NCBI RefSeq assembly: GCF_000716595.1
Contig: NZ_JNXC01000045.1
Location: 1-50,330, forward strand
Reading direction: 5' to 3'
DNA length: 50,330 bases
From: Saccharothrix sp. NRRL B-16314
Lineage (GTDB): Bacteria > Actinomycetota > Actinomycetes > Mycobacteriales > Pseudonocardiaceae
How positions within the stretch are numbered: the first letter of the stretch is position 1; every line of letters starts with the position of its first letter. This document shows positions 444 through 33,898 of this stretch, piece by piece. The position numbers and the translations under genes are program-made. The notes beneath the pieces are model-generated. The model was not told where the DNA came from and did not search any database. It saw only the letters and a list, made by a program, of their open reading frames with translations.

Positions 444-1973
444 GTGTCCGCCCTCGTTGACGCGCTCCTCTCGGCAACGCTCCTCTCGGCCGGACCCGAG
501 CACGGCCACGCCCCACCGGGGGGAGCCGTCGCCGGTCCGGCGACGGCCGTCCTCCTCGCGCTGCCCTTCGTCGCCGGGTTCGCCCTGCTGCGACCGTTCG
601 TCCCGGCGCCAGGTCGCGGTTCGCGCGAACTGCTCGCGACGGCCACGGCCGGCGCGGTGTTGTGGGAGGTCTTCCGGCTCCCGGCCGACGCACCCCGTCC
701 GCTCGTCGCCGCCCTGGTCGCCCTCGCCCTGCTCGTTCCCCTGGCAGTCACGCTCAGCCGGTCGACCAGCGCACGCACGGACGCGGTCCAGTCCTGGCTG
801 TTCGCCGCTGCCGCTGCCACCGCCGCCGTGGCGTTCCAGCACGCACGTGGACCGGCGGGGGTGGCCGTCCTGTGCGGGATGACCGCCCTCGCGTGGTACC
901 CGTTGTGCGCCACCCGGTCGCGCGGCGGCACCGTCGTCCTCCGGACCGCCGCCGCGGTGCTCGCACTGGCGCTGATCGGCGGCGTGGCCCAGGCGGTGAT
1001 CGTCGGGACCGGCGGTCCGAAGCCGGGCGTCCCGGTCCTCGCCCGGATCACAACGGGCACGACCACGCTCGACGTGGTCGTCGTGCCGCACCTGCCCGGC
1101 CCCAACCTCGTCCACGTCACGCCGGCCCGCGGCCTGCTCATCACGTCGGCCGCGGACAGCGCCACGACCGCCACGCGACCGGGCACGACCGGCGAGTGGG
1201 CGGTGATCGACCTCCCGGAGGGGCAGTCCACGCTGCGTTTCGGTGCCGGCACCGTCCCCGTGGACACCGGCGACGCGGTGCCGGGCGCACCGGACCTCAC
1301 CGGCGCGGACGGGCCGGAGTGCGCGAGCGCCCTGCTGGGCGGCCTGGTCGGGGAGCCCGCCGCGCGGCGTGGCACGTCCACGTGCCCGGCCGAAGCCCTG
1401 ACCACCCCCGACGCGGAGGCCCTGCGCGTGGTGCCCGCGTTCCTCGCCGGTCGCGGGCAGCGGACCATCTCCCTCGTTGCCGACGACTCCCCCCGGTCGG
1501 CAGCCGCCGCGCGCACCGTCCGGGAATCAGCCGAAGCCCGTGGCATCCGGGTCGTCGACGACCCGACCGCGCCCGTCGTGGTGGTCTCCGGGTGGGAGGC
1601 CGCCGCCGCGACCGTGGCCGCCATCGCCGCCGGCGACCACCCCGCCCAGGGCAGCTACCTGGCGCCCTGGCTGCTGACTCCCCCGCTGCTCGAACCACCG
1701 GCGGGCCAGGTCGTGCCGCTGACGTTCACGCCGACCGACGAGTCCCCGATGCGCTACGTGGCCGCGCTGACCGACCGTGCGCCCGGCGCGGCGCCCAGCA
1801 CCTCCGGCTACCGGGCCTGGCTGCGAGCACGCGGCGATCACCCGGCCGCGACCGTGCGGCTCCACGCCGCCGGCACCGCCGCCGTCCCGGGGACCGGCCA
1901 CCACGACCACCGCCCGTCGTGGCTGCACGGCGGCATCGTCATCCCCGTCACCGGCCCGCTCGACCCGGGCTGA
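444..1973 (+). CDS. Large membrane protein with a binding-protein-like C-terminal region (DUF6239-like), cluster-associated
   Basis: 509 residues, GTG start preceded by GGGGGAA. The first ~190 residues are hydrophobic, with about five or six predicted membrane segments (Ala/Leu/Val-rich runs near residues 30-55, 65-85, 90-110, 120-140, 150-185). The rest is soluble, with a beta-rich stretch (~200-280) and an alpha/beta region (~290-480) containing phrases typical of periplasmic solute-binding folds, such as PLTFTPTDESPMRY. It resembles uncharacterised actinobacterial proteins that I recall as DUF6239, linked to natural-product loci, but I could not check this. It lies between clpC and the first regulator and heads a plus-strand pair with the small ORF at 1993. 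Function unknown; a membrane-anchored sensor or a handling protein for the product is a guess. Confidence 0.7.
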   Translation: MSALVDALLSATLLSAGPEHGHAPPGGAVAGPATAVLLALPFVAGFALLRPFVPAPGRGSRELLATATAGAVLWEVFRLPADAPRPLVAALVALALLVPLAVTLSRSTSARTDAVQSWLFAAAAATAAVAFQHARGPAGVAVLCGMTALAWYPLCATRSRGGTVVLRTAAAVLALALIGGVAQAVIVGTGGPKPGVPVLARITTGTTTLDVVVVPHLPGPNLVHVTPARGLLITSAADSATTATRPGTTGEWAVIDLPEGQSTLRFGAGTVPVDTGDAVPGAPDLTGADGPECASALLGGLVGEPAARRGTSTCPAEALTTPDAEALRVVPAFLAGRGQRTISLVADDSPRSAAAARTVRESAEARGIRVVDDPTAPVVVVSGWEAAAATVAAIAAGDHPAQGSYLAPWLLTPPLLEPPAGQVVPLTFTPTDESPMRYVAALTDRAPGAAPSTSGYRAWLRARGDHPAATVRLHAAGTAAVPGTGHHDHRPSWLHGGIVIPVTGPLDPG

Positions 1974-1992
1974 CACCAAGAGGAGGAGCACC

Positions 1993-2163
1993 ATGGCACC
2001 GGCGCACGACGAATCGTCCTATGTGGAGCACCTGGCCGGGGTGGAGTCCGTGCTGCACGGCGAAGGGCGGGAACCCGACGTGCCGCCGCCGGACCGGTCC
2101 GAGCCGGGCGCGGATCACACCAGGCCGAGCATCCGCGTGCACCGCTGGATCGCCTCGGGCTGA
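1993..2163 (+). CDS. Small protein of unknown function, 56 residues
   Basis: An excellent AGGAGG ribosome-binding site (1981-1986) sits seven bases from ATG, 19 bases after the stop of the membrane protein, so the two are probably co-transcribed. The product begins MAPAHDESSYVEHLAG, is hydrophilic and Pro/Asp/Glu-rich, and has no membrane segment and no Cys. Its last 49 bases overlap the 3' end of the convergent HxlR gene on the other strand. I do not recognise a family. The RBS argues for translation, but the tail may only be the antisense of the regulator gene. Confidence 0.5.
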   Translation: MAPAHDESSYVEHLAGVESVLHGEGREPDVPPPDRSEPGADHTRPSIRVHRWIASG

Positions 2164-2783
2164 CCCTCGATCGACACCCGCCCGGTGGCGATCGCGGCGA
2201 ACGGCGTGATCAGGCGGGCGCCGATGCGGACGAACGTGTCCGGGTCACTGGTGATCACCAGGTCCGGCTGCTCCGCCTGACCGCGGCTGAACGCCACCTC
2301 GCCCGCCTTGACCGCGACCGTGAACGCCTGGTCGCCGACCCGGAACTCGTACACCTCGTCGATGTCCGGGATCTCGGTCTCGACCACCATGGCCTGGATC
2401 GCCAGGAAGCCCCACTCCGCGCGGACGACCCCGGTGCTCGCGGACTCGTCCAGGAACGACAGGCCCCACCTGGTGAGCGACAGCACGGGTCCGGACAGCT
2501 GCCGGCCCAGCTCGGTGAGCTGGTAGAACTTGCCGCGCCCGTCACCGGGGACCGGCACCTGCTCGATCACGCCGTGCTCGGTGAGCGTCTTGAGCCGTTC
2601 GGCCAGGAGGTTCGGGCCGATGCCCGGCAGGTTGTCGATCATCTCGTTGAACCGGGACGGGCCGATGAGCAGCTCCCTGATCACCAGCAGGGTCCAGCGC
2701 TCACCGATGACGTTCATCCCGGCGGCCAGTCCGCAGAACTGCCCGTAGTCCCGCTTGCCGACCACTGCCACCCCTAGCCTCAC
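2115..2783 (-). CDS. HxlR-family regulator with C-terminal SCP2-like domain (copy 1)
   Basis: 222 residues. The N-terminal ~110 residues form a HxlR winged helix: CGLAAGMNVIGERWTLLVIR, then RFNEMIDNLPGIGPNLLAERL and the wing GDGRGKFYQLTELG. The C-terminal half (~125-222) resembles a sterol-carrier-protein-2 domain (YEFRVGDQAFTVAVKAGE, then IEGQPEAIQRCTRML). HxlR proteins bind inverted repeats as dimers; the SCP2 fold binds hydrophobic ligands, so a lipophilic effector is inferred. GTG at 2783 is used, but GTG at 2771 would match copy 3 (21748-22446) better. The copies at 20195 and 21748 are close paralogues. The gene lies 74 bases after unbL on the same strand, with the TAGCAAC half-site in that gap. 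Confidence 0.88.
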   Translation of the reverse strand: MRLGVAVVGKRDYGQFCGLAAGMNVIGERWTLLVIRELLIGPSRFNEMIDNLPGIGPNLLAERLKTLTEHGVIEQVPVPGDGRGKFYQLTELGRQLSGPVLSLTRWGLSFLDESASTGVVRAEWGFLAIQAMVVETEIPDIDEVYEFRVGDQAFTVAVKAGEVAFSRGQAEQPDLVITSDPDTFVRIGARLITPFAAIATGRVSIEGQPEAIQRCTRMLGLV

Positions 2784-2805
2784 CGACGGACAGGTCGGCC
2801 AAGCC

Positions 2806-2812: not shown

Positions 2813-2857
2813 GGGGGTGGCGGACCAGCCGTATTCCACCCGGGTGCGCGCAGCCGG

Positions 2858-3820
2858 TCACCGGCCACCGCCGTCGATCAGGGCGCGCAGCCGCGCCTTC
2901 CACTCCAGGTACGCGTGCACGTGGCGGTACCCGAGCAGGTCCGCGGACGTCTCGTCGGTCCAGCGCGCCGCTTCCTCCACCGTCACGCCCACCAGCTGGG
3001 CGCACGCGTCGCGGGTGTGGTCCGGCACGACGCCCGAGCGTGCCCTGGCGCCGACCGCGAAGACGACGCCCTGGGCGAAGTGAGACCGGTGGGGCCGGGC
3101 CAGGTCCAGCAGCGCGGCACGACCGGCGTCGTCCACCGCACCGGCGTAGGCGCAGGCCAGCCCGACCCCGCTCCACAGGTGGGGCCTCGCGGCGACGGGT
3201 GCGCGTTCGATCACCTCGGCCACGCCGTCCGGGTCGGCGGACTGCACGAACCACAACGCCCGACCGCACCCCGCGAGACGTGCCTGCCACACCGGCCCCG
3301 GGGTCCGCCCGGCCCGGCGCAGCAACGCTTCCACCCCGCCGAAGTACACCTCGCCGAAACCGTTGCCGTCGAGCGCGAGCCAGCGCAGCAACGGGGCGGA
3401 CGGCAGCCGCACCACGGCCGGCACCCGCGCCGCGGTGAACAGCCAACCGGCGCCGACGTGCACCAGGTGCGGGTACCCGGCGCCCGGCCCGGCGAGCAGG
3501 CGGTCGAGCGCACGCGCCCGACCGGCGGTGGCCAGGTCGAGCAACCCGGCGAACATCGCCGCGCCCTCGTACGCGAACCCGCGCTCTTCCTCCGCCACCT
3601 CGCTCAGCGGCTCGTGCGGCGCACGCCACGACCGCACGGCGAGGTTGAACCCGCCGAGGAAGTTGCCCGCGTGCCGTTCCAGCACCGCCCGCTGTGTCGG
3701 CCGGTCGAGCCGGAACCCGCGCCGGGCGAAATCGGCCATCGACAGCGGCAGCCGCGGTCGTAGTCGCGCGAGCGGGTTCGTCGTGCCGGGTGTGGACGGA
3801 ACCGCGCGCGAACGCCCCAC
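2858..3820 (-). CDS. unbL: UnbL/DUF1702 enediyne biosynthesis protein
   Basis: 320 residues from a GTG at 3818-3820 preceded by GGAGG (reverse strand). The N-terminal MADFARRGFR (residues ~25-34) followed by a Gly/Ala-rich helical body, with GFAYEGAAMF, GYPHLVHVGAGW, YFGGVEALLR and WSGVGLACAYAG motifs, matches DUF1702. Pfam describes this family as the products of unbL genes, one of the five conserved genes of enediyne cassettes (unbL, unbV, unbU, pksE, tebC-type thioesterase). Its biochemical role is not established; it is thought to act with PksE in forming the core. Normally it neighbours unbV/unbU. Here it is about 22 kb from the other members, on the same strand. Length is normal for the family. 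Confidence 0.85.
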   Translation of the reverse strand: MGRSRAVPSTPGTTNPLARLRPRLPLSMADFARRGFRLDRPTQRAVLERHAGNFLGGFNLAVRSWRAPHEPLSEVAEEERGFAYEGAAMFAGLLDLATAGRARALDRLLAGPGAGYPHLVHVGAGWLFTAARVPAVVRLPSAPLLRWLALDGNGFGEVYFGGVEALLRRAGRTPGPVWQARLAGCGRALWFVQSADPDGVAEVIERAPVAARPHLWSGVGLACAYAGAVDDAGRAALLDLARPHRSHFAQGVVFAVGARARSGVVPDHTRDACAQLVGVTVEEAARWTDETSADLLGYRHVHAYLEWKARLRALIDGGGR

Positions 3821-3843
3821 AACTCCTCCAGGCCAGGAATAGT

Positions 3844-3942: not shown

Positions 3943-5667
3943 TCAGCGCCTCGGGGCCTCGGACACGGCGAACAAAACGCCGTGAGGCCTGGCGAAGCCG
4001 GTGGCGCCGTGCGGCCACCGGGTCCGGTTCATCTGGACGCACGGGGTGCCGGTGTGCTCGTCGCGGAACGAGACGTCCTCCGACAGCGTCCCGTCGGACG
4101 CCTGGTTGATCATGCACACGCGGTGGTCGCCGTCCAGGCCGACCGCGGCCACGAAGTAGTTCGACACGGCCAGCCTGGTCACCCGGTCGGTCTCCCGGAC
4201 CTTGCCGTTCGGCAGCCGCTCGAAGGTGTCCAGCGTGCCCCAGTGCGGGCCGACGCCGACGTCGGGCGACACGGCGTCCCGGATCGGCACCGCGTCGACC
4301 AGCTTCGGGCAGTCCGGTTCGAAGCCGCCGCGCTCGACCTCGGCCAGCTCGTCCACGGAGCACGTGGTCCGGTCGCCCGACGCGACGAGGTCGCGGATGT
4401 CGAGCACGTACACCATGCCCGTCTGCTCCTGCCGCGGCAGGAAACCGTTGGTGCCCATGACGGTGTGGTAGAGGTACCGGTCGTCCGGGCTGACCTGCAG
4501 CCAGCTCGCGCCGTCGTACGCGCCGCTGAGCCGGCTCTCGTGCTGGAACGAGGCGTAGGCCGCGGTGTCGTCGAAGACCTCGCGCCACTGCGGTGACGGG
4601 CTGGTGATGTCCGGCGTGTAGAAGACGGCGCCGCCGAGCATGGTGGAGGCGAACGCGCCGCGGTGGCCGGGTCTGTTGGTCACCGCCACTTCCATCACCA
4701 TGCGCTGCTCGTCGGAGTAGCCGTCCGGGTCCGGTGGGCGCGGCCCCTTGGGCAGGGACGCCTTCGACACGACCCTGGCGTCGTCCCGGTCGCTGATGTC
4801 CCAGATCCGGACCGTGTCCCGGTAGAGGTACGGGCTGCCGGGGCCGGTCTGCTCGCCGACGAGGTTGCGGATCTCCACGTAGTCGCTGGTGATCATCCGG
4901 TCCAGGTCCTCGCGGACCTGGATGCCGTGCGGGTTCGCGCAGGACGGCACGGGCAGCGCGGGCACCGACGGGCACGTCACGGCGTCCTCCGGCGCGAGTG
5001 AGGCGGCCGGCAGCTCGGCGAGCGTCCGCCCCTTCTCGTCCAGTCGGACGACTTCGCCCGGCGTGCCCGCGAAACCGTTGCCCTGGCGCACTTCGCCGTT
5101 GGTGTAGGTGCACGGGCCCGGCACGTTCGGGCCGCCCATGTAGGTGCCGTACGCCGTGCCGTCCCGGAGCACCGCGAAGGCGTCCGGCGCGGTGCCGCAC
5201 GGCGTGTCCATCGGCAGGTTGACGCCGGTGATCCGGACGAGCGGCAGGTCGTCGACGTCGAGGACGAACACCGTGTCGCTGAGGATGCCGCCGGCGTAGA
5301 GCCGCTGCCCCTGGTGCCAGGTGTACTGGAGGTGGTGCGGCTCGTTGCCGGACTGCGGGCCGACCGTGGCGGTGTTGACGACCTTGCCGTACGTGGGCGA
5401 GTCCGGCGACGCGTCGACCACCGCCAGGAAGTCCGGCTCGGCGCCGTCGGCGGTCGGCGCGCCGCCCGCCCAGACGAGCAGCCATTCGTGCGACTTCCAC
5501 CGGTCGCCGTAGCCGACGAGGTGGTTCGTCACCGTGTAGGTCCCGCCGTCCGTGCCCACCACGCTGGTGGGCACCACGCGGACCGGGTCGGCGGACGCTG
5601 AAGGGGTGAGGAAAGCGGACGGGAGCAGGATGGCGGCGGCCACCCGGCCCCAAGCGGTTCTGATCAT
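3943..5667 (-). CDS. Secreted SBP56/methanethiol-oxidase-like beta-propeller protein
   Basis: 574 residues from the ATG at 5665-5667, which has GGGG upstream and opens directly into a signal peptide (MIRTAWGRVAAAILLPSAFL, cleavage near ASA-DP). An upstream in-frame ATG would only add 13 residues. Motifs of the selenium-binding protein 56 family are clear: PDFLAVVDASPDSPTYGKV, NEPHHLQYTW (family DELHHSGWN) and NPHGIQVREDLDRMITSDY. Known members oxidise methanethiol to formaldehyde, H2S and H2O2 using copper and are often exported. The gene lies between unbL and a methyltransferase and may belong with the sulfur genes at 22.6-24.7 kb. The substrate here is inferred, and the copper ligands need checking by alignment. 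Confidence 0.75.
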   Translation of the reverse strand: MIRTAWGRVAAAILLPSAFLTPSASADPVRVVPTSVVGTDGGTYTVTNHLVGYGDRWKSHEWLLVWAGGAPTADGAEPDFLAVVDASPDSPTYGKVVNTATVGPQSGNEPHHLQYTWHQGQRLYAGGILSDTVFVLDVDDLPLVRITGVNLPMDTPCGTAPDAFAVLRDGTAYGTYMGGPNVPGPCTYTNGEVRQGNGFAGTPGEVVRLDEKGRTLAELPAASLAPEDAVTCPSVPALPVPSCANPHGIQVREDLDRMITSDYVEIRNLVGEQTGPGSPYLYRDTVRIWDISDRDDARVVSKASLPKGPRPPDPDGYSDEQRMVMEVAVTNRPGHRGAFASTMLGGAVFYTPDITSPSPQWREVFDDTAAYASFQHESRLSGAYDGASWLQVSPDDRYLYHTVMGTNGFLPRQEQTGMVYVLDIRDLVASGDRTTCSVDELAEVERGGFEPDCPKLVDAVPIRDAVSPDVGVGPHWGTLDTFERLPNGKVRETDRVTRLAVSNYFVAAVGLDGDHRVCMINQASDGTLSEDVSFRDEHTGTPCVQMNRTRWPHGATGFARPHGVLFAVSEAPRR

Positions 5668-5842: not shown

Positions 5843-6688
5843 TCAGCCCCCGGCCTTCGCCATCCGCTCCGCGGAGAGCAGCAGGTAGCCGGGTTCTCCG
5901 ACTTCCAGGCACTCCTCGAACACCGAGATGAAGGCGTCCAGCATCCCGGGGCCGTACACGGGTTCCAGTTCGGCGCGCTGCCGCTGCACGGCGAGCACCA
6001 TCTCGCGGTGGTGGCGATCGGTCTGGCGGGTGATGTCGAGGTACTCGGTCAGGTGGAACCCGGCCGAGCGCAGCAGCGGCGGGTAGTCCTCGACCACCAG
6101 CAGCTCGCTGTTGAGGGCGAGCCTGCGATAGGCCTCCACGGCCGCGAGCCGCCGGCCTTCCGGCGGCTCCTTCACGAAGAAGTCGGTCAGCACGAAGCGC
6201 CCGCCGTCCCGCAGCACGCGCCCGAGTTGGCCGAACACCCTTGGCAGGTCGGGCATGTGCACGATCGACTCGATGGCCAGCACCGCGTCGAACGAGTCGT
6301 CGGGGAACGGCAGGTCGAGCGCGTCGGCGACCTCGAAGCTCACCAGATCCGTGAGCCCTTCCCCCGCCGCGCGGGCCCGTGCCTCCGCCACGAGGGACGG
6401 GCTGGTCGCCACGCCGACCACGGTGGCGCCCGTGGTGCGGGCGAGCCGGACGGCGGGCATGCCGAGCCCGCACCCGAGGTCGAGGACCCGGCTGCCGGGG
6501 CCGACGCGCAGCCGTTCGACCATCATGTCGGTCAGCCGGTCGGTGGCCTCCTGCACGGTGCTCGTGTCGTCCGCCGAGTCCCAGTAGCCCAGGTGGACGT
6601 TGACCCCGACCAGCCGGGTGATCAGCGGGATCGCGTTCTCGTAGAACTCCACGACCTCTTCCTTGGTCGGTGTGTACGACGAGACCAT
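5843..6688 (-). CDS. SAM-dependent O-methyltransferase, RebM-like
   Basis: 281 residues from the ATG at 6686-6688, preceded by GGGAGGA; the longer frame lacks an RBS. The N-terminus (EEVVEFYENAIPL, NVHLGYW, ATDRLTDMM) closely follows the RebM type of glycoside/sugar O-methyltransferase. The SAM site is VLDLGCGLGMPAVRLA (residues ~79-94), followed by DLPFPDDSFDAV and an IESIVHM stretch. RebM methylates the 4'-hydroxyl of the rebeccamycin sugar; methylation of a sugar or core hydroxyl in the enediyne is inferred. It is transcribed divergently from the N-methyltransferase gene at 6855, with a strong inverted repeat in the shared promoter. Confidence 0.85.
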   Translation of the reverse strand: MVSSYTPTKEEVVEFYENAIPLITRLVGVNVHLGYWDSADDTSTVQEATDRLTDMMVERLRVGPGSRVLDLGCGLGMPAVRLARTTGATVVGVATSPSLVAEARARAAGEGLTDLVSFEVADALDLPFPDDSFDAVLAIESIVHMPDLPRVFGQLGRVLRDGGRFVLTDFFVKEPPEGRRLAAVEAYRRLALNSELLVVEDYPPLLRSAGFHLTEYLDITRQTDRHHREMVLAVQRQRAELEPVYGPGMLDAFISVFEECLEVGEPGYLLLSAERMAKAGG

Positions 6689-6854: not shown

Positions 6855-7577
6855 GTGACCACCGTGTACCGCGACGGCTACGCCGAGGTCTACGACCGGG
6901 TCATGCGGGCCAGGGGCCGCGACCACGCCGCCCAGTCGCGTGCGATCGCCCGGCTGGCGCGCGACCACGACTCCGGCGCGACCCGCCTGCTGGACGTGGC
7001 CTGCGGCACCGGGCTGCACCTGCGGTTCCTGCGGGAGGAGTTCGACGTGACGGGCGTGGACGCCTCGGCCGCCATGCTGGCCGTCGCCGAGGCCAGGGTG
7101 CCGGGACTGCGGACGCACCGCGCCGACATGCGCGAGGTCGAGCTGGCGGCCCGCTTCGACGTGATCACGTGCCTGTTCGCCGTGCCGCACCTGGCATCGA
7201 CCGCGGAGTTGGAGCAGGTGGTCGCGCGGTTCGTCCGGCACCTGGCGCCGGGCGGCGTGCTGCTGGTCGAACCGTGGTACGAGCCCGGTGAGTTCATCGA
7301 GGGGCACGTGTCGCGGGACGTGGTCGAGGAGCCGGAGCGCACGACGGTCCGGCTCTCGCACTCCACCCGGCTCGACGGCTCCCGCGTCCGGATGGTGGTG
7401 CACCACGCCGAGGCGCACTCGGTGACCGGCATCCGGCACGCCACCGACACGTTCGACATGACCCTGTTCACCGCACCGGAGTTCGAGGCCGCCTTCGCGG
7501 CGGCGGGGTGCGACGCGGAGCACGTCCCGGCCACGCCGTTCCGGTGGGGGCTCTGGGTCGCCCGACCGCGGGGCTGA
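6855..7577 (+). CDS. NDP-aminosugar N-methyltransferase, DesVI/TylM1-like
   Basis: 240 residues, GTG start. Motifs in order: YAEVYDRVMRARGRDHAAQS (DesVI: ADVYDLFYLGRGKDYAAE), the SAM motif LLDVACGTGLHLRFL (~50-64), MREVELAARFDVITCLFAVPHL (~92-113), PGGVLLVEPWYEPGEF (~133-148) and MTLFTAPEFEAAFAAAG. This is the family that N,N-dimethylates TDP-amino-deoxysugars such as desosamine and mycaminose. No strong RBS is seen; a TAGCGT hexamer seven bases before the GTG would allow a leaderless transcript. It heads the plus-strand sugar block. The cluster shows no sugar aminotransferase, so the source of the amino sugar is unclear. Confidence 0.85.
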   Translation: MTTVYRDGYAEVYDRVMRARGRDHAAQSRAIARLARDHDSGATRLLDVACGTGLHLRFLREEFDVTGVDASAAMLAVAEARVPGLRTHRADMREVELAARFDVITCLFAVPHLASTAELEQVVARFVRHLAPGGVLLVEPWYEPGEFIEGHVSRDVVEEPERTTVRLSHSTRLDGSRVRMVVHHAEAHSVTGIRHATDTFDMTLFTAPEFEAAFAAAGCDAEHVPATPFRWGLWVARPRG

Positions 7578-25046: not shown

Positions 25047-25472
25047 TCATGTCAACACCTCCGCCGCGTACGGCCTCAGCGCACCGGCCAGTTCCTCGGG
25101 GACGTGCACGGGCCGCACGCCGTCGTCGCCGCGCCGCAGGCACGACACGGTCTGGTTGCCCCGGGCCACCAGCCGTCCGGCCCGGCGGAACTCGTAGTCC
25201 ATCTCGACCCGGTTGCCGTGCGTGCCGCGCAACGTCATGCCGACCTCGATCTCGTCCAGCGCGAAGGACTCCGCGAAGTACTCCATCGAGCACGACACCG
25301 TCACCAGCACCAGTTCGCCCCGGCGCAGTTCGGCCAGCACACCGGGAGCGTGATCGGCGAGGAACGACTCGCGGCAGTGGCCCTGCCAGTGCAGGTAGTG
25401 GGCGAAGTAGACGTTGCCCACCACGTTGGTCTCGTCGAACGTGACCCGGTGTCGGAAGATGTACTCGCGCAC
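25047..25472 (-). CDS. Enediyne hot-dog thioesterase (TebC/E10 type)
   Basis: 141 residues, GTG start one base after the PKS stop. The hot-dog fold thioesterase pattern is clear: TFDETNVVGNVYFAHYLHWQ (residues ~10-29), then GHCRESFL, VTVSCSMEYFAESFALDEIE and MDYEFRRAGRLVARGNQTVS. Enediyne clusters carry this enzyme next to pksE, where it releases the polyene from the ACP (SgcE10, DynE7 and relatives). The catalytic Arg/Glu typical of the group are candidates in GHCRESF. Normal length. Fourth gene of the unbV-unbU-pksE-TE chain. Confidence 0.92.
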   Translation of the reverse strand: MREYIFRHRVTFDETNVVGNVYFAHYLHWQGHCRESFLADHAPGVLAELRRGELVLVTVSCSMEYFAESFALDEIEVGMTLRGTHGNRVEMDYEFRRAGRLVARGNQTVSCLRRGDDGVRPVHVPEELAGALRPYAAEVLT

Positions 25473-25473
25473 G

Positions 25474-28400
25474 TCAGACCCCTCCCACGGCGATCGCGAT
25501 GACGGGATCGCCCAGACCGACGACCCGCGGCCTGGCCACCACCACCGCGGCGTCCGCGCCGGACAGCACGAGCAGGCCGTCGTCGGTGATCTCGTCCAGT
25601 TCCAGCGGCGCCGAGCGGTCTCCGCCGAGACCGGCCAGTGCCGCGCGACCGGCGGCCACCCGGCCGGCGGTCACGTCGACGGGTTCGTCCAGCTTGCCCG
25701 CGGCGCACACGACGACCTCGTCGTCGGCTTTGGTCACCGGTTCGTTCGCCGGCGCGCCCCACGCGATGCCGACGGGTCGGTCGGCGCGGGCGAGGAGCAC
25801 GTGGTCGTCCCGGGTGGCGGTGGTCCAGTCGTCGCCGGGCGGCACGGGCCGGTCCGTTCCCGCGACGACCAGCTCCACGTGCTGCGCGACGTCGAGTTCG
25901 ATCAGCCGGCGGCTGAGCAGCGGTCCGACGAGCGGCACGAGCAGCGGCTCGTCCCACCTGGTCGGGCCGATCGCACGGAGGCGGAGGGCGTCCCAGCGGG
26001 CCACGAGTGCGCCCGTCGAGTCCGAGACGTCGACGTCGAACACGTAGTCGTCGGCGGTGTGGGCGCGTTCGAGCGCGTGCACCCGCAGCACGCCGGTCGG
26101 TGCGCGCCACACCGTGAACCGGTCCGCGCCCACGGGTAACGCGCGTCGGTGCGGCACGCAGGCCAGCAGCACGTGCAGCGCGGCGTCGTGCGCTCCGGGG
26201 TCGCCGAGCAGCAGTCGTTGGTGGTGGAACTCGGAGAACCACGTGGTGTCCGGCTCGGCGCGGACGCGGGCCAGGACTTCGAACGCGGACAACAGGTCGT
26301 AGCCGAGCAGCCGGCGGAACCTGCCGCGGTGGAACAGCAGCGGACCGTAGAACGGGTGCGCGTCGTGCGTTCCGGCGCCGTCGACCGGCGGGAAGCTCCG
26401 GTCCTGCGCTGCCGCGTCGCGGACCGTGGCGGTGAACCGGTCGGTGCGGAAGCCGTCGGACTCGTCGCTCAGCGCCACGCGCACGCCGTCCTCGCCGTCG
26501 TGCAGCGCGAGGACGCGCACCAGGCGGGAGCCGCGGTCCTCCACGGTCACCGGGCTGCGCAGGTCCACGTCCTCAAACGCCCACCCGCGCCGTTCGCCGG
26601 TCACCGCGTCGACGGCCTGCGCCATCGCCTCAAGGCCGACCACGGCGGGCAGCACGGGCACGCCCTCGATGCGGTGCTCGTCCAGGTAGGGGTCGTCGCC
26701 GAGGGACAGCGACGCCTCCAGCACGGCCTCGACGCCGGCGAACCGGACCGGCAGGTCCTCGGTGAAGCGCAGCGGCTCCGGCGGCGGGCCCGCGGCGGTG
26801 AGCGTCGGCCCGGCCGGGAAGCGACCGGTGAGCAGGACGGTGACCGGCGCGTCCCGGTCGGCCAGCACGCGCATCATGGCGGGCGGCCCGTCCTGCGCCG
26901 CGATGGGCGTGATGCCGGTCGCGGCGAGGCCGGCCACGACGCCCATCCGCTCCCCCATGCCGATCCCGGACCACAGCGACCACTCCAGGAGGTGGAAGCG
27001 GCAGTCGGTCCGCGCCGCCGCGGCGTGCTCCACTTCGGCGCGCAGCCAGTCGTTGGCGACGCAGTACTCGGCTTCGCCCGGCAGGCCGCGGCGGCCGATG
27101 ATCGAGCCGAACGCGATCACGAGCCGCAGTGCCGGTGCGGCGTCGAGCAGGGTCCGCAGGCCGACCACCTTGGGGGCGAGGGTCCGCTTCAAGGTCTCCG
27201 GTGTCACCGCGCCCATGCGCTGCGGCGAGTTGACGCCCGCGCCGTGCAGGAGCCCGCGCACGGTGCCGAGGACGCCGGCGGCGGTGACGGCGCGCGCGAC
27301 GTCCGCCGGGTCGGTGACGTCAGCCTGCACGTAGTGCGCGCGGATGCCGTCGGGGAACGACGCGAGAGCGGCCCCGACGCGCGGCGAGTCCGGCGCCGAA
27401 CGACCCAGCACGACCAGCGTGCACCCGGTGCTGCGGGCCAGCGCCGCGCCGCACGCGCCGGTGATGCCGTCCACGCCGCCGGTGACCAGGCAGACGTCGC
27501 CCCGGCCCAGCGGCAAGTCGCTTTCGGGGCCGTGGTGGCGTGCGTGCGTGGTGACGTGCTCCACCCCGTCCTGGGTGACGCGCAGCTCCCGGTAGCCGGT
27601 TCCGGCGACGAGGCGCGCGTCGAGCGTGTCGCCTCCCACGTCCACGACGGTGACCGCGCAGTCGTCCAGCTCGACGGCGGCACTGCGGCCGACCGCAGCC
27701 GCGGCCGGATGACCGCGGTGCGCCACCACGAGGCGGGACGGTCGGGCCTCCGCGATGAGTGCCAGCGCGCGGGCCACTGCCGCGGGTTCTTCGCCCTCCA
27801 GCCAGAGCGCGAGGCCGTTCCCCGGCAGGGTGACGTCGTGCAGCCAGTGGCCACGCGGTGCGTCCACGGTCCAGTCGCCGGGTGGTGTCGCGGCGCCGAT
27901 GGGCTCGAAGGGGGTCCACCGGTGCTCGAAGGCACGCACCCACCGGGCGATCCCGTCGGGCGGTGCGCCGGTCTTCTCCTCGGTCGCGGACGGCTGCTCG
28001 GCCAGGAGGTCGGCGATGTCCGCGACGGTGCTGTCCACAATGGACAGCGCGGCGTTCGGCGGTGTGCGGCCCAGCAGGCCCGCCATGGCGGCGACGAGCT
28101 GGACCACCTGGAGCGAGTTCAGGTGCAGGTCCCCGAGCAGCGTGCTGTCGGGCCGGATGCTCCCGAGCGGCAACTCCAGGACCTGGCTGAGGTGCGCCCG
28201 GACGACGTCCAACGGTTCCCCACCCACGGACGGTTCGAGCACGGCCGCTTCGGATGGCATCTGTTGGCGCACAGGTGTTTCAGGGGCAAGATCGACCGGA
28301 ACCCCCGACATGCCGGGGAGAACGGTCTCGCACGGGTTGGCGAGCAGTTCGATGCCGGTGTCCAGGTCGAGCGGGCGGTGCACCCGACCGGCGAACCAGG

Positions 28401-31011
28401 CGTCCAGGTCACCGGCGGCGCACGCGGCGAGCGCGGCCGTCGCCATCGCGTGGCGGTGCGGGTGCGTGCCGTCCAGCGAGATCGCGGGCACGTCCGGCAC
28501 GGTGGTGCGCGCGATGTCTGCGAGCGTCGTGCCGGGTCCGGTCTCCACCAGCAGCTCGCAGCGCTCGGCGAGGCGCCGCACGGCCTCCGTGAACCGCACC
28601 GGCCGGGTCACCTGGCCGACCAGCAGCGCGGCGAGGTCGGTGTCGGACGTCAGCGGACGGCCCGTCACGGTGGAGAACACGGGCCGTCCTGGTCGTCCGA
28701 ACGGGACACCGGCGAGTTCGGCTCGCAGCGGCTCGACCACGTCGTCCATCGCGGTGCTGTGGAAGCCGTGGGACACGGGCAGCGCGGTGGCGGCGATCCC
28801 CCGCGCCCGTGCCCGCGCCACCAGCCGTTCGACGTCCTCGACGGCGCCGGCGACCGTGGTCTGCTCCGGGCCGTTGAACCCGGCCACCTGGACGGCCGTC
28901 CCTTCGGTCAAGGCCTCGACGTCGGCGGGCGGTGCGCCGATGCCCGCCATCGTGGTGCCCTCACCGCCGTGCTCGGCCATCAGCCGACCGCGGGCGACGG
29001 CGAGCGCCAGGCCGGTGGCGGGGTCGAGCGCGCCGGCCCACACCAGGGCGCCGATCTCGCCGAGGCTGTGGCCGACGGCGGCGACGGGCCGGACGCCGCA
29101 CGCGTCGAGCCACGCTAGCCCGGCGAGGGACTGGCGCAGGATCGCCGGTTGGGCGACCGCCGTGTCGCGTGCGCCGTCCACGAGCGTGACGCCGCACGGT
29201 GTCGGCACGTCCAGGTCGGCCGCCCACGGGCCGAGGTCGGCGCGCACGGGCGCGGCCTGGCCTGGCAGGAGCAGGCCGACGCGCGGTGCGGGACCGGAGG
29301 CGAGCACGACGCCCGCCGGCTCGTCCAGCAGAAGGCGTCCGTCCCAGCCGGGCAGGTGGTCGCCGGCGGCGGTGGCGGCGCGGTGCAGCCGGTCGGGCGT
29401 GTCGGCGACCAGCGCGCAGCGGACCGCGCCGGGACCGCGTCGACCGGCGTGCGTGGTGGCGGCGAGGTCGTGCACCTCGGCCGTGCTCAGCCGGGGTGCG
29501 AGGGCGGCGACGGCGTCCAGTCGCTCCCGCAGCCCGTCGGTGTCCGCGGCGTCGAGGAGCAGGATCGCGTCGCGGTGGGGGCGGCGGCTCAACGCGACGA
29601 CGCGGGGCGGCAGCGACCCGACGGGCCGGGCGGGCAGACCGCGCAGCACCACGTGGGCGTTGACACCGCCGAAACCCATGGAGGACACCGAGGCCAGCGG
29701 TGTCGTCGTCGGCCAGGGCTCGGGTTCGGCGAGCAGGCGCAACGGCGTGCCGGTGCGGCGCAGCAGCGCGTGCGGCGACTCCACCCCCGTGGTGGGCGGC
29801 AGCACGCGGTGGTGCACGGCGAGCGTGGCTTTGATCAGTCCCGCCACGCCCGCCGCGGCCTTGGTGTGGCCGATGTTGGCCTTCACGGAGCCGAGGGCCG
29901 CGCGGTGCGCGCCGTCACCCCGGACCTCCGCCAACGCGGTCAGCTCCACCTCGTCGCCGACCTTCGTGCCCGTGCCGTGTCCCTCGACCAGCTCGACGTG
30001 GTGCGGCTCGATGCCCGCCATCCGGTAGGCGCGGGCCATCGCGAGCGCCTGGCCGTGCGATCGGGGCCGGGTGAGGCCGCCCGAGCCGTCGGTCGACGTG
30101 CCCCAGCCGGTGAGCACCGCGTAGATGCGCAGGCCCGCGCGTTCCGCGTCCTCGGCGCGCATCAGGGCGACGACGCCGCAGCCCTCGCCGGGCAGGAACC
30201 CGGTCGGCGACTCGTCGTAGACCCGCATCCGGTCCACCGCGAGCGCGCCCGTGCGGGCGAAACCGACCAGCTCGAACGGGTCCAGGCTGAGGTCGACGCC
30301 GCCCGCGAGCGCGAATTCGAGGTCGCCGTCGAGCAGCGCGCGGCTCGCCGTCATCACCGACAGGAGGCTGGACGCGCACGCGCCGTCCACGGTGAAGCCG
30401 GAGCCGTGGAAGTCGAAGTGGTTGCAGATCCGGCCCGCGATGGTGTTCGACAGCGCACCCGCGAGCGATTCGTCACCGGGGACCGGGAACGGCGTCCGCA
30501 CGAGGTCGCCGAGCAGGCTGATCACGTGCTCGGCGCGCCCCGGGTCGACACCGGCACCCGCAAGCGCCACGGCGGCGGCACGGCGGACGAACGGCCACCT
30601 CAGGCGCAGCTGGGCGGCCCGGGAGAACTCGCCGGTCATCGTGTTGCCCAGCACCACGCCGACGCGGTCCCGGTCGAGCCCGCGCCCGTCCGGGAAACCG
30701 GCGTCCACCAGGGCGTCGGCCGCCGTCTCCAGGGCGAGCCAGTGCACGTGGTCCACCGCCCGGTGCAGCGGCCCCGGCACGCCGAACCGCTTCCGGTCGA
30801 ACCGCCAGTCGCGCAGCAGCCCGGCGTGCGTCGAGTAGGTGCGGTCCGGGTCGTCGGCCGGACCGAGGTACGCGCTGGACAGCCGTTGCTCGGGGAATCT
30901 GCGGAAGCCCCGGCGGCGGCCGAGCACGGTCTCCCACAACCGGGTCGGCGAGTCGGCGTCGGGGTAGCGGCACGCCATGCCGACGATCGCCACCCCCTCC
31001 GACGGGCTCAC
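25474..31011 (-). CDS. pksE: Iterative enediyne polyketide synthase (PksE)
   Basis: 1845 residues from the GTG at 31009-31011, whose GTGA overlaps the unbU stop; the frame stays open further upstream through unbU. Domains in order: KS (VAIVGMACRYPDADSP at the start, catalytic DGACASS near residue 212, EGHGTGT, NIGHTKAAAG), AT (GHSLGEIGALVWAG, ~648), ACP (LGDLHLNSLQVVQLV, Ser ~969), KR (LVTGGVDGITGACGAALA ~1179, YCVAN active site), DH (DEHRIEGVPVLPAV, His ~1445) and a C-terminal region (~1650-1845). This is the single-module layout that makes the linear polyene of 9- and 10-membered enediynes. The C-terminal part corresponds to the usual integral PPTase but lacks its acidic and ExxxK residues (VGIAWG where V-x-x-D-x-E is expected). 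Slightly shorter than typical PksE (about 1900-1950). Confidence 0.95.
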   Translation of the reverse strand: MSPSEGVAIVGMACRYPDADSPTRLWETVLGRRRGFRRFPEQRLSSAYLGPADDPDRTYSTHAGLLRDWRFDRKRFGVPGPLHRAVDHVHWLALETAADALVDAGFPDGRGLDRDRVGVVLGNTMTGEFSRAAQLRLRWPFVRRAAAVALAGAGVDPGRAEHVISLLGDLVRTPFPVPGDESLAGALSNTIAGRICNHFDFHGSGFTVDGACASSLLSVMTASRALLDGDLEFALAGGVDLSLDPFELVGFARTGALAVDRMRVYDESPTGFLPGEGCGVVALMRAEDAERAGLRIYAVLTGWGTSTDGSGGLTRPRSHGQALAMARAYRMAGIEPHHVELVEGHGTGTKVGDEVELTALAEVRGDGAHRAALGSVKANIGHTKAAAGVAGLIKATLAVHHRVLPPTTGVESPHALLRRTGTPLRLLAEPEPWPTTTPLASVSSMGFGGVNAHVVLRGLPARPVGSLPPRVVALSRRPHRDAILLLDAADTDGLRERLDAVAALAPRLSTAEVHDLAATTHAGRRGPGAVRCALVADTPDRLHRAATAAGDHLPGWDGRLLLDEPAGVVLASGPAPRVGLLLPGQAAPVRADLGPWAADLDVPTPCGVTLVDGARDTAVAQPAILRQSLAGLAWLDACGVRPVAAVGHSLGEIGALVWAGALDPATGLALAVARGRLMAEHGGEGTTMAGIGAPPADVEALTEGTAVQVAGFNGPEQTTVAGAVEDVERLVARARARGIAATALPVSHGFHSTAMDDVVEPLRAELAGVPFGRPGRPVFSTVTGRPLTSDTDLAALLVGQVTRPVRFTEAVRRLAERCELLVETGPGTTLADIARTTVPDVPAISLDGTHPHRHAMATAALAACAAGDLDAWFAGRVHRPLDLDTGIELLANPCETVLPGMSGVPVDLAPETPVRQQMPSEAAVLEPSVGGEPLDVVRAHLSQVLELPLGSIRPDSTLLGDLHLNSLQVVQLVAAMAGLLGRTPPNAALSIVDSTVADIADLLAEQPSATEEKTGAPPDGIARWVRAFEHRWTPFEPIGAATPPGDWTVDAPRGHWLHDVTLPGNGLALWLEGEEPAAVARALALIAEARPSRLVVAHRGHPAAAAVGRSAAVELDDCAVTVVDVGGDTLDARLVAGTGYRELRVTQDGVEHVTTHARHHGPESDLPLGRGDVCLVTGGVDGITGACGAALARSTGCTLVVLGRSAPDSPRVGAALASFPDGIRAHYVQADVTDPADVARAVTAAGVLGTVRGLLHGAGVNSPQRMGAVTPETLKRTLAPKVVGLRTLLDAAPALRLVIAFGSIIGRRGLPGEAEYCVANDWLRAEVEHAAAARTDCRFHLLEWSLWSGIGMGERMGVVAGLAATGITPIAAQDGPPAMMRVLADRDAPVTVLLTGRFPAGPTLTAAGPPPEPLRFTEDLPVRFAGVEAVLEASLSLGDDPYLDEHRIEGVPVLPAVVGLEAMAQAVDAVTGERRGWAFEDVDLRSPVTVEDRGSRLVRVLALHDGEDGVRVALSDESDGFRTDRFTATVRDAAAQDRSFPPVDGAGTHDAHPFYGPLLFHRGRFRRLLGYDLLSAFEVLARVRAEPDTTWFSEFHHQRLLLGDPGAHDAALHVLLACVPHRRALPVGADRFTVWRAPTGVLRVHALERAHTADDYVFDVDVSDSTGALVARWDALRLRAIGPTRWDEPLLVPLVGPLLSRRLIELDVAQHVELVVAGTDRPVPPGDDWTTATRDDHVLLARADRPVGIAWGAPANEPVTKADDEVVVCAAGKLDEPVDVTAGRVAAGRAALAGLGGDRSAPLELDEITDDGLLVLSGADAAVVVARPRVVGLGDPVIAIAVGGV

Positions 31012-32000
31012 GACCGCACCGCGTCGGGATCGGCGGGTGTCGGCGCCGGCCGCTTCGACGCGACGACCAGCACCACGGCGCGCAGGACGCACGTGGCCAC
31101 CAGGGCGAAGAACAGCCCGAACGAGACCTCGGCGAGGACGAGGGTCGCGTAGACCGCCGCCGCGGTCACGCCGAACACCACCTGGTTGCGCGTGACGAAC
31201 GGCGTGCTGCCCGGGTCGGTGATCATGTAGTTGGTGAACAGGATGAACGCCAGGCCCGTCATCGGTGCGAGCGCGCCGAGCAGCGAGTGGTCCAGCAGCA
31301 ACCAGCGCAGCACGGCCTGGAGCGCGAACGCGCCGAGCCAGGCGAGGATCAGCGGCATCTTGCCGGTGAGCTTGGCGTTCAGCACGGTGCCCGCCATCAG
31401 CACGCCCAGCGGCAGCAGCCAGTCCAGGGTGCCGGTGGTGAAGCTGGTGAAGTGGTAGGGCGGCGCGATGCCGACCCACGGGAACAGCAGCAGCGCCACG
31501 ACGATGCCCGTGTTGGACGGGTTGAACACGTGCCGGACCTTGCCGTTGACCCGCAGCCGCACCAGGTACTTGCTGGCGTTGCCGACCGTCACGGCGAAGA
31601 TGTAGGGCCACAAGGACTCGTTGCCCCACAACAGCATTCCGCACGCCAGGCCGGTGATGTGGGCGGGCAGCAGGAACACGACGAGGGCCTTGGCCCCGCC
31701 CGCGCAGGTCGGCGTGCGCCCGGTGACCCACGCGTCGAGGAGTTCGAACAGCAGCGCGGTGGCGTAGCTGACGAGGACGACGACGATCGGCGTGATCGGT
31801 GCCTGCTCGAAGCCGAGCAGGAGGTGCCCGAGGATGTTGAACACGGTGATGGACGTGGCGAACCGGGCGAGCGCCTTGACCCGCCGCTGCTCCGGCGTCA
31901 GGCCCGGCCGCGCGGGCGGGGCGGTCGACGCGGTCGGGCGCGCGTCGGCGGCCGGTGCGCCGCCGCGGTGCACGTCGGGTGGTGTCGAAGTCGTCGTCAT
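31008..32000 (-). CDS. unbU: UnbU membrane protein of the enediyne cassette
   Basis: 330 residues from the ATG at 31998-32000, which overlaps the unbV stop. After a ~40-residue Pro/Ala/Thr-rich soluble start there are about eight or nine membrane segments (for example ITPIVVVLVSYATALLFELL, ALVVFLLPAHITGLACGMLL, IVVALLLFPWVGIAPPYHF, FGLFFALVATCVLRAVVLVV). Conserved phrases include RHVFNPSNTGIV and TNYMITDPGSTPF. These NPSN and DPGSTP signatures resemble RnfD/NqrB-type flavin-carrying membrane subunits, to which UnbU proteins are distantly related. Role in core formation not established. The coupled overlaps on both sides indicate tightly linked expression with UnbV and PksE. Confidence 0.9.
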   Translation of the reverse strand: MTTTSTPPDVHRGGAPAADARPTASTAPPARPGLTPEQRRVKALARFATSITVFNILGHLLLGFEQAPITPIVVVLVSYATALLFELLDAWVTGRTPTCAGGAKALVVFLLPAHITGLACGMLLWGNESLWPYIFAVTVGNASKYLVRLRVNGKVRHVFNPSNTGIVVALLLFPWVGIAPPYHFTSFTTGTLDWLLPLGVLMAGTVLNAKLTGKMPLILAWLGAFALQAVLRWLLLDHSLLGALAPMTGLAFILFTNYMITDPGSTPFVTRNQVVFGVTAAAVYATLVLAEVSFGLFFALVATCVLRAVVLVVASKRPAPTPADPDAVRS

Positions 32001-33898
32001 CGAACTACCGCCGTTCCGTCGCTGTCGAGCAGGATGGTCGAGCGACCGGACCTCACCTCGACGTCCGCCTCGTGCGACCCGGCGGCGTCGCGCCAGGTCA
32101 CCGTGGCGCGGACGGGGTCGCCACCGGGCAGGGCGAAGTGCAGCTCCGGGGCCGACACCCCGGTGTGCCCGTTGGCGGGGAAGAGCTGGGCCCGCTGCGG
32201 TCGCTCGGGGTGGTGCAGCCGTACCTGTGCGCCGATGGCGGGCGTGGTCGCGCCCTCCTGCCCGGCCCGCGCGGGCCGCACCAGGCGCAGACCGGCCGAC
32301 GGTCCCGCGTCCGAGGTGTTGTGCAGCAGCACGGAGTCCTGCCACTGGTTGGCCACGACGGCGTCCAGCTTCCCGTCGCCGTCCACGTCGCCGAACGCGA
32401 GCGCGCGGGTGTTGTCGTCGGCCGCGACGCCGGTCCCGCCGGCCACGTCGGCGTACCGGCCGTCCGGTCCCCGCGCGTAGAACCGGTTGGGCTCGTGGCC
32501 GGACAGGTCGTCACCGGGCTCGAAGTCGGGCCAGAACGCGGGGTTGTGCAGCAGGTCGTCGTTGGCCATCGCGAGTTCCTGGAGCAGCGGCCACCGGTTC
32601 ACGTCTCCCTTGAGGAACCCGTTGGCCTGCATGAGCTCGTCCGTGCCGTCGTTGTCGAAATCGCCCGCGCGGACGTCCCAGCACCAACCCGACCGTGCCA
32701 GGCCGAGCTGCTCGCTGCGGTCCCGGTACGGCAGCTCCCCCGCCGCGAAGTCCTCGGGCGAACCGGTCGGGGTGAACACGAAGTTGCTCTCGTGCAACGC
32801 GTAGGGGGTGGTGATGTTGCTGACCACGATCGTCGGCAGCTGCGCGTCGCCGTCGTAGCTGAAGGTGACGCCCATGCCCTTGAACGAGTCGTAGCCGAGC
32901 GCCATCGACTTGGGCGTGACCATGTCGCGGTCGCCGCGGATCTCGGTGAACTCGACCCGGCCGGGCGTCGACTCGTTGAGCATCAGCTGGTCCGGACCGA
33001 AGTCGTTGGCCTGGTACACCTCGGGCCTGCCGTCGCCGGTGAGGTCCTGCAAGCCGGTGGCCAGGGTCCACGACCCCGCCGCCTCCCGGCTGAGCGCGGT
33101 GCTCGCGTCGGTGATCCCCGGCAGCTCGTCGGGGCGGCCGGTGGGCGTGGTGAGCAGCAGTCGGTTGGTGCCGCCGTTGCGGGCGAAGGACATGGAGTGC
33201 TGCATCTCCATGCGGGTCTCGTCGTCGGCCGTCGGGTCGAGCACCCGCGCGCCGTCCGGGAAGTAGTTGCCGACCAGCAGGTCGAGGTTCCCGTCGCCGT
33301 CCACGTCACCGACGTTCAGCGTCTCGCTGTTCCACACCTCCATCGGCGTGACCAGCTCGACGGCGCGGTGCCCGGCCGCGGTGGGCACCCCGGCGCCGGC
33401 GGTGTTGAGGAACACCACCGGCGAACGCCCCCAGTAGTGCACGACGTGGTCGGTGTCGCCGTCGTCGTCGATGTCCACCGGGACGCAGCCCATCGGCGCC
33501 ATGGTCGCGTCGTACGGCAGGTCGGCGGGCGCCAGCCGGACCGGGGCGTAACCGTCCTCTTCGGACGGTCGGGCCGGGCGCAGCGTGACGGAGTCGTCCC
33601 GCGGGTCGACCAGGCAGAGGTCGGCGGCGCGGCCCAGACCGCGCACGTCCGACAGGCCGGCCGCGGCGCCGACCGCGGAGATCCAGGACCGGATGTTCCG
33701 CAGGCCCGGCGCGACGGCGCGTTCGGTCCGGGCGTCCGCCGGCGCCGAGTTCACCGCCTCGGTGGCGAACCGGTAGCGGGCGGCGAGCGCACCGGCGTCC
33801 TGCTCGCTGAGCGCCGGCCGGACCACCATCAGGCCCGACGCCACGCAAAGCGCCAGGATGACCGCCGTGACGAGCAACTTCCGTGCTGATGTCTGCAT
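31997..33898 (-). CDS. unbV: UnbV/ASPIC VCBS-repeat protein of the enediyne cassette
   Basis: 633 residues from ATG 33896-33898 (GGGAG upstream), the start that opens directly into a membrane segment or uncleaved signal (residues ~7-29). Calcium-binding FG-GAP/VCBS loops recur: DIDDDGDTD, DVDGDGNLD, DLTGDGRPE, DFDNDGTDE, DVDGDGKLD. The C-terminal ~110 residues are the ASPIC/UnbV domain (IGAQVRLHHPERPQRAQLFP, LPGGDPVRATVTW). One of the five conserved enediyne cassette proteins, predicted to lie outside the membrane. First gene of the PKS operon; 448 gene-free bases precede it. Confidence 0.92.
   Translation of the reverse strand: MQTSARKLLVTAVILALCVASGLMVVRPALSEQDAGALAARYRFATEAVNSAPADARTERAVAPGLRNIRSWISAVGAAAGLSDVRGLGRAADLCLVDPRDDSVTLRPARPSEEDGYAPVRLAPADLPYDATMAPMGCVPVDIDDDGDTDHVVHYWGRSPVVFLNTAGAGVPTAAGHRAVELVTPMEVWNSETLNVGDVDGDGNLDLLVGNYFPDGARVLDPTADDETRMEMQHSMSFARNGGTNRLLLTTPTGRPDELPGITDASTALSREAAGSWTLATGLQDLTGDGRPEVYQANDFGPDQLMLNESTPGRVEFTEIRGDRDMVTPKSMALGYDSFKGMGVTFSYDGDAQLPTIVVSNITTPYALHESNFVFTPTGSPEDFAAGELPYRDRSEQLGLARSGWCWDVRAGDFDNDGTDELMQANGFLKGDVNRWPLLQELAMANDDLLHNPAFWPDFEPGDDLSGHEPNRFYARGPDGRYADVAGGTGVAADDNTRALAFGDVDGDGKLDAVVANQWQDSVLLHNTSDAGPSAGLRLVRPARAGQEGATTPAIGAQVRLHHPERPQRAQLFPANGHTGVSAPELHFALPGGDPVRATVTWRDAAGSHEADVEVRSGRSTILLDSDGTAVVR

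Follow-up and report, generated by a model that had tools for sequence, protein, structure and literature searches.

Conflicting ancestries of unbL and its cassette partners unbV and pksE in an enediyne gene cluster of Saccharothrix sp. NRRL B-16314

Introduction

Enediynes are DNA-cutting natural products, and to our knowledge the individual roles of UnbL, UnbV and UnbU are a still open part of the formation of their core; work on a diiodotetrayne intermediate in that process has reportedly been done, and we did not find it as a separate paper. We analyzed a 50,330-nucleotide stretch, referred to here as the window, that makes up contig C45 (positions 1 to 50330) in the 8.93-Mb, 273-contig genome of the soil actinomycete Saccharothrix sp. 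NRRL B-16314. It holds an enediyne cassette in which unbL stands apart from unbV, unbU, pksE and the thioesterase (TE) gene. Did unbL simply move away from its partners, or does it have a different origin? We found that the ancestry of UnbL conflicts with that of UnbV and PksE, both here and in a sister genome (G061), and we think it probable that the cluster is a working chimera, of the 10-membered type, that arose when two related clusters merged in a forebear common to both strains.

Results

Genes were called from codon-position composition; there were 41 in the window, and 40 of them were scanned against Pfam. As originally predicted, all five enediyne cassette genes (E3/E4/E5/E/E10) were present, four by their domains and unbU by homology. 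UnbL matched PF08012 (DUF1702) with 224 bits, UnbV had FG-GAP and UnbV_ASPIC domains, PksE had the domain order KS-AT-ACP-KR-DH, and the TE was a 4HBT_2 protein. UnbU had no Pfam match and was 57 to 93% identical to UnbU proteins of cassettes elsewhere. An NCBIfam scan at E ≤ 0.001 gave no name for UnbL, UnbU or UnbV, and no solved-structure relative was found for UnbL. PksE grouped with the polyketide synthases of enediyne cassettes in a tree whose 25 rows all came from such cassettes, with no non-enediyne outgroup; among these rows, we know only that of Streptomyces sp. CB03234 (tiancimycin) as characterized.

The genes unbV, unbU, pksE and TE lie on the minus strand from 33898 to 25047. An ATGA overlap joins the unbV stop to the unbU ATG (about 32000), a GTGA overlap joins the unbU stop to the pksE GTG (about 31011), and a single base separates pksE from TE. 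Because the four genes overlap or nearly touch, the coupled operon that had been predicted is real. The distance from unbL to the near end of this operon was 21.3 kb, close to the 22 kb first estimated. Genome-wide protein searches returned one DUF1702 match and one UnbU match in this genome, and likewise in the sister genome, so a second cassette was not detected elsewhere in the genome.

We then asked how unusual the split is. UnbU was sought in 390 genomes of the family, 158 of which had a match, and unbL was also sought in 60 of them, chosen mainly by top UnbU identity and including the window's genome; it was found in 59. Counting one unbU place per genome, and two for G174, gave 61 places. 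At 49 of these unbL lay within 3.2 kb of unbU on the same strand, which bears out the expectation that unbL usually adjoins unbV and unbU; ten were split, and two had no unbL on the contig. Contiguity is thus usual; it is not required in print, where passages of PMC5181780 describe cassettes in which E5 or E10 stands away from E, and it is absent from the window. The ten split places were those of the window's genome, of the sister genome (unbL to unbU, 12.2 kb), of six genomes of one genus, g25 (G232, G237, G238, G245, G249 and G250), and, more loosely, of G241 and G069, the last of which may pair genes from two clusters. In the g25 genomes, unlike the window, unbL is on the strand opposite to unbU and about 5.5 kb away from it, and unbV adjoins unbL in G232 and G238, the two examined. 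Clear detachment of unbL alone was therefore confined, among the 60 genomes, to the window's genome and its sister.

The relatives of the cluster fall into two groups, named from identity and synteny. A-type clusters occur in Goodfellowiella, Umezawaea, Lentzea NBRC 102530 and S. obliqua and, judged by the cassette, also in Saccharomonospora iraqiensis and G174; B-type clusters occur in S. carnea, S. luteola and G074. In A-type clusters unbL is the first cassette gene, upstream of unbV, and that place is vacant in the window and its sister. The window has neither an A-type unbL adjoining unbV nor a B-type pksE and unbV. The adenosine deaminase-like gene (ADA) that adjoins unbV here stands beyond unbL in Umezawaea, Lentzea and S. 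obliqua, and the TldD/TldE genes come next in order in these three and in Goodfellowiella.

Trees were built from 40 sequence sets. The first UnbL tree kept 37 (identity above 42%, with a minimum length), after which Longimycelium was dropped from the A group and ALI-1.44 from the B group, as neither had fallen with its group in this tree; since membership was revised at this point, the approximately unbiased (AU) tests below were not blind. Divergent, short or truncated rows (G232, G072, G120, NocS836, G255, G238, G174c, UNOB3, Slilac and Longim) were omitted from later trees, leaving 30 rows for UnbL and 29 each for UnbV, UnbU and TE. The PksE tree had 25 rows, five more having been omitted (Acolor, Haid, Actinoph, G013 and Selong), and its AU test was a quick search under a simple model.

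UnbL of the window grouped with the B type at 100/99 support, and placement with A was rejected (AU test, p = 8.65e-5); the first tree, with the divergent rows kept, gave the same grouping at 100/99. The nearest named homologues of this UnbL were from Saccharothrix and Actinosynnema, and the UnbL of S. isguenensis shared 90% identity with it. UnbV, by contrast, placed the window inside A (100/100; B rejected, p = 1.0e-5), as did PksE (support 100; B rejected, p = 2.2e-65). Identities followed the trees, with UnbL at 77 to 80% to B and 63 to 66% to A, and PksE at 56 to 57% to B and 65 to 73% to A. The ancestry of UnbL therefore conflicts with that of UnbV and PksE, in the window's genome and its sister alike, a point absent from the original prediction. 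Both UnbV and PksE put the window beside Saccharomonospora in A, while the UnbL tree has the B type roughly where it should be; the misplaced gene is therefore the window's unbL.

These trees bear directly on a rival explanation, that the native unbL moved within an ordinary cluster and that its distance has no further meaning. Splits do arise in other lineages, as the six g25 genomes illustrate, but a moved native gene should leave UnbL in A beside Saccharomonospora, like UnbV and PksE, and it is this placement that the AU test rejects, with UnbL nearer to B and PksE nearer to A in identity as well. Plain rearrangement is strongly disfavored, and we regard it as improbable.

The B-type signal was not confined to unbL. 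The UbiB kinase and NifS-like genes on contig C28, which we describe below, each joined the B group with support of 100, placement with A being rejected (p = 4.7e-5 and 2.9e-48, respectively), and so did the methionine gamma-lyase (MGL) in the window (100; p = 7.9e-84). By identity, HxlR_a, HxlR_b, HxlR_d, the SBP56-like protein, the 2,3-dehydratase, ADA, TldD and TldE lean to A; a tree of HxlR_b, with 8 rows and no outgroup, did not discriminate. The cytochrome P450 and AHSA1 genes had matches only in B among the A and B sets compared, and P450 relatives of 57 to 61% identity also occur near three other cassettes. Across relatives, A-type clusters repeatedly carry SBP56-like, HxlR-SCP2, 2,3-dehydratase and MGL genes, and B-type clusters repeatedly carry EF-hand, P450, AHSA1 and SBP5 (substrate-binding protein family 5) genes.

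The cluster was first drawn from 444 to 33898, a span that proved too short on both sides. On the right it reaches about 38.5 kb; ADA accompanies three A-type cassettes and the TldD/TldE pair four, a more distant pair occurring in three B-type clusters; the position of the pair differs among the A- and B-type clusters. A literature search listed one paper, PMC4351081 on lincosamide synthetase, that contains the words TldD, TldE and enediyne. In the sister genome, which is a single contig with cassette proteins 89 to 93% identical to ours and the same chimeric composition, it also runs on to the left, and the same genes stand at the end of C28 in the window's genome. A clpC copy separates C28 from the window; the assembly breaks within it, and C28 ends in a clpC 3′ end. 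The left order, SBP5′-g19′-UbiB-g19-methyltransferase-DUF6004 followed by unbL, matches that of S. carnea, and clpC-DUF6239-HxlR_a occupies the place of the TE-pksE-unbU-unbV of S. carnea. The mark of the B type here is SBP5′-g19′ beside UbiB, where A has HxlR_b. Gene g19 is present twice in both genomes, as an A-like and a B-type copy: A was rejected for the left copy, on C28 (p = 1.1e-6), and B for the right copy, in the window (p = 2.8e-5).

The cluster-linked clpC is a second copy, found at the start of the window, at the end of C28, at G061:C1:4381742-4384243, at L053:2-697, and at the end of L052 and start of L142; in Umezawaea and Lentzea, pieces of it lie beside HxlR_d at contig ends. 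The G061 cluster copy is 98.2% identical in DNA to the housekeeping clpC of the same genome, whereas its identity to the long copies in other species does not exceed 93.8%. The 3′ end, by contrast, has diverged and is nearer to the C28 piece (91% versus 82%). It looks as though gene conversion has homogenized this copy. One guess is that the cluster clpC clears damaged self-protection proteins.

DUF6004 (G000:C28:98087-99289; L131:18087-19289) was 83 to 98% identical across the window's genome, G061, the B-type clusters and the four core A-type clusters, and 73 to 74% in Saccharomonospora and G174. Of 40 genomes with UnbU, 20 had it, against none of 20 without UnbU and none of 14 control genomes, so DUF6004 is a candidate for a core gene in this group of enediynes.

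Discussion

We favor a merger as the route to the chimera, which, being carried by both genomes, predates their split. An A-type parent would have given the unbV-unbU-pksE-TE operon with ADA-TldD-TldE, and a B-type parent unbL, the UbiB kinase, the NifS-like gene and the lyase, with SBP5 and others probably also from this side. Reciprocal loss would then have emptied the site upstream of unbV of its A-type unbL and deleted the B-type TE-pksE-unbU-unbV that had stood between DUF6004 and unbL, leaving g19 in both versions.

Several observations weigh against this account or against its details. The UnbU tree had no resolving signal (B placement, p = 0.51), the TE tree showed a trend to A (94/94) that did not reject B (p = 0.056), and DUF6004 did not separate A from B ancestry. 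The right g19 copy joined A weakly (40/36), and the A and B labels of genes without trees come from identity alone. The vacated site upstream of unbV yielded no trace of an unbL remnant. The C28-clpC-window join in this genome is taken from the gene order in G061. Because the order UbiB-g19-methyltransferase-DUF6004 is common to A and B, and in the A-type clusters of Umezawaea and Lentzea clpC likewise flanks HxlR_d on the side towards DUF6004, the backbone and breakpoints proposed here are provisional, and a variant in which B-type blocks were inserted into an A-type backbone fits as well.

The split cluster could also be a decaying leftover that makes nothing, and the sister genome has indeed lost material: the SBP56/sugar/P450 block (window 3943-17061) and SBP5 are missing from the 100 kb examined there, and only a 3′ AHSA1 remnant is kept (4387834-4388244, E = 7e-13). 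All five cassette genes are nevertheless open, with ratios of nonsynonymous to synonymous substitution (dN/dS) of 0.18 to 0.31 between the two genomes. For unbL, which has no internal stops, the ratio was 0.18, and the ten genes compared span 0.13 to 0.31; unbL has thus evolved under constraint since the two genomes split, and a leftover seems quite unlikely. As the sugar/P450 block is missing from G061 and only the AHSA1 remnant remains, that strain probably makes a differently decorated product. Least plausible is hidden paralogy, in which unbL was already duplicated in the common ancestor and different lineages retained different copies. Two adjacent DUF1702 genes do occur in several genomes of the family whose clusters are more distant (G120, G006 and G010, for example), but the node at which UnbL splits into A and B is about that of the UnbV tree, a second copy was seen in no cluster of the A, B or window type (further DUF1702 genes elsewhere in these genomes being 35 to 41% identical), and the same history would be needed for UbiB, NifS, MGL and both g19 copies.

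If the merger took place, UnbL would act in trans, serving a cassette whose ancestry differs from its own. PksE and TE, by their families, would make a polyene that UnbL, UnbV and UnbU help to turn towards the enediyne core, and neither cotranscription nor tight co-adaptation of unbL would then be needed. The prediction that unbL has its own promoter drew no support from a scan of 2000-5000, which found no sigma-70-like site, though G061 has kept the sequence immediately upstream of unbL even though the next upstream gene there differs. A motif shared upstream of unbL and unbV, CTGGTAGGA, was considered as a promoter element. With up to one mismatch it matched at 11 places in the window, where 4.5 were expected, and 0 of 100 shuffles reached 11; several matches lay inside genes, and the motif was dropped because its near-exact form was intergenic in just one of the ten other sequence sets scanned (G061). 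An ACTATA-like motif upstream of unbL also occurs near clpC and DUF6004.

The original prediction also did not mention that the cluster has a calicheamicin-like sulfur gene set. The lyase matched CalE6 with 462 bits, against 320 bits for the best other solved enzyme, and C28 holds two Aminotran_5 genes (class-V aminotransferase/cysteine desulfurase family) and an ABC1/UbiB kinase gene. At the level of families and gene content, this corresponds to the calE6 and putative cysteine desulfurase-type calE4 and calS4 of the calicheamicin cluster of Micromonospora echinospora, as set out in parts of PMC4851618, which give the role of CalE6 in trisulfide formation as unknown. The lyase and the two desulfurase-family genes may thus supply sulfur for a calicheamicin-type trigger, while the glycosyltransferase, 2,3-dehydratase and methyltransferases would add a modified sugar, which their families suggest is a methylated deoxysugar. 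The likeness to calicheamicin is one of published gene content and also takes in the cassette and glycosylation genes.

Sections of PMC5181780 report R3 present and E2 absent in 10-membered clusters; we read R3 as the UbiB/ABC1 kinase and E2 as a second DUF1702 gene. Portions of PMC9464397 describe a UbiB-type kinase, TnmR3, in the tiancimycin cluster and an HxlR regulator type, TnmR1, conserved across anthraquinone-fused enediyne clusters, and the UbiB kinase and HxlR regulators of the window and C28 belong to these families. On that reading, and with just one DUF1702 gene in the genome, a 10-membered product is suggested; the predicted product is a 10-membered, sulfur-triggered, glycosylated enediyne. 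It may be new, since no characterized product matched.

That novelty had first been argued from accessory genes said to match no known cluster. The split enediyne cluster stands, but homologues of each accessory class named are present in A-type clusters, in B-type clusters or close to the tiancimycin cassette. The tiancimycin strain CB03234 (L082) shares the unbL-unbV-unbU-pksE-TE family and has an HxlR match to HxlR_a (60% identity, tblastn) 2 to 3 kb upstream of unbL. Unlike the window, it has a contiguous cassette, a PksE 46% identical over the aligned part, and no lyase or homocysteine S-methyltransferase match in the 20.9-kb locus compared, where TnmR3 was not seen either. A-type clusters share unbV-unbU-pksE-TE, HxlR_d, TldD/TldE, the SBP56-like and 2,3-dehydratase genes, ADA (three of four) and, in Umezawaea and Lentzea, clpC pieces, but they have unbL adjoining unbV and their own UbiB, NifS and MGL. 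B-type clusters share UnbL, SBP5, P450, AHSA1, UbiB, NifS, MGL and the SBP5′/g19′ block with the window and C28, but have their own divergent TE-pksE-unbU-unbV beside unbL, and their TldD/TldE are 48 to 59% identical.

A search of titles and abstract openings in the open-licence literature found no description of a chimeric or merged enediyne cassette. We lean slightly towards the view that the enediyne core is modular, with UnbL free-standing and exchangeable between cassettes whose PksEs are about 56% identical, and that merger with reciprocal loss yields new hybrid sulfur-triggered enediynes. Such a hybrid suggests which core parts need not coevolve and could be swapped between clusters, offers a direct complementation test, and suggests merger with reciprocal loss as a shaper of enediyne diversity. 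Clade calls based on PksE may also misdescribe accessory genes; here PksE is A type and the sulfur genes are B type.

Other features of the window

Table 1 Features of the window, with identities to A-type (A) and B-type (B) clusters
Feature	Position	Strand	Evidence
First 33 codons of cluster-linked clpC, cut by contig start	1..99	-	tblastn, 33/33 identical to ClpC of the G061 cluster
DUF6239 protein; 45-46% to A of Goodfellowiella, Umezawaea, S. obliqua	444..1973	+	Pfam, identity
HxlR-SCP2 regulator a (HxlR_a); 67-68% to four core A, 48% to B	2115..2765	-	Pfam, identity
unbL/E3 (DUF1702), B-type, detached from cassette operon	2858..3739	-	Pfam, genome search, tree
SBP56-like protein; 56-57% to A	3943..5643	-	Pfam, NCBIfam, identity
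Methyltransferase a; 56-57% to B	5843..6688	-	Pfam, identity
Methyltransferase b	6855..7577	+	Pfam, identity
NDP-sugar epimerase/dehydratase-like	7606..8514	+	Pfam
NDP-hexose 2,3-dehydratase; 61-63% to four core A	8692..10014	+	Pfam, identity
EryCIII-like glycosyltransferase	10112..11254	+	Pfam
Methyltransferase c	11289..12113	+	Pfam
MFS transporter	12298..13929	+	Pfam
EF-hand protein; 41-42% to B	13926..14468	+	Pfam, identity
Cytochrome P450; 68-70% to B	14497..15840	-	Pfam, identity
PNPOx-like flavoprotein	15859..16368	-	Pfam
AHSA1/START-like protein; 56% to B; putative self-protection	16573..17061	+	Pfam, PDB matches, identity
ArsR-type helix-turn-helix fused to AHSA1 domain	17423..18259	-	Pfam, PDB matches
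SBP family 5 binding protein (SBP5); 84-87% to B, adjoins unbL there	18324..20084	-	Pfam, synteny, identity
HxlR-SCP2 regulator b (HxlR_b); 82-84% to four core A, 72% to B	20195..20866	-	Pfam, identity
g19, A-like copy (B-type copy on C28)	20940..21581	-	tree
HxlR-SCP2 regulator c	21748..22443	-	Pfam, identity
Homocysteine S-methyltransferase	22594..23481	-	Pfam
Methionine gamma-lyase (MGL), best PDB match CalE6	23478..24629	-	Pfam, PDB match, tree
Short HxlR-like regulator d (HxlR_d); 64-67% to four core A, 44-45% to B	24687..24995	-	Pfam, identity
Enediyne thioesterase (E10), best PDB match DynE7	25047..25472	-	Pfam, PDB sequence match
pksE, 1845 aa, A-type	25474..31011	-	Pfam, sequence reading, tree
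unbU/E5, 330 aa	31008..32000	-	homology, sequence reading
unbV/E4, A-type	31997..33898	-	Pfam, tree
Empty site, position of unbL upstream of unbV in A	33899..34346		synteny
Adenosine deaminase-like gene (ADA), linked to three A-type cassettes	34347..35483	-	Pfam, identity
TldD-like and TldE-like pair (metalloprotease-like), linked to A and B	35687..38532	+	Pfam, synteny, identity

CalC was sought among the PDB sequence matches of the two AHSA1-domain proteins, and no chain of that name was present. Residues 53-132 of the SBP56-like protein weakly resembled methanethiol oxidase (37 bits against a cut-off of 650), and its gene lies in the same cluster as that of the methionine gamma-lyase. A further homocysteine S-methyltransferase gene lies outside the cluster at 41898-42788; its product shares 30% identity with the cluster copy and 93% with its G061 counterpart.

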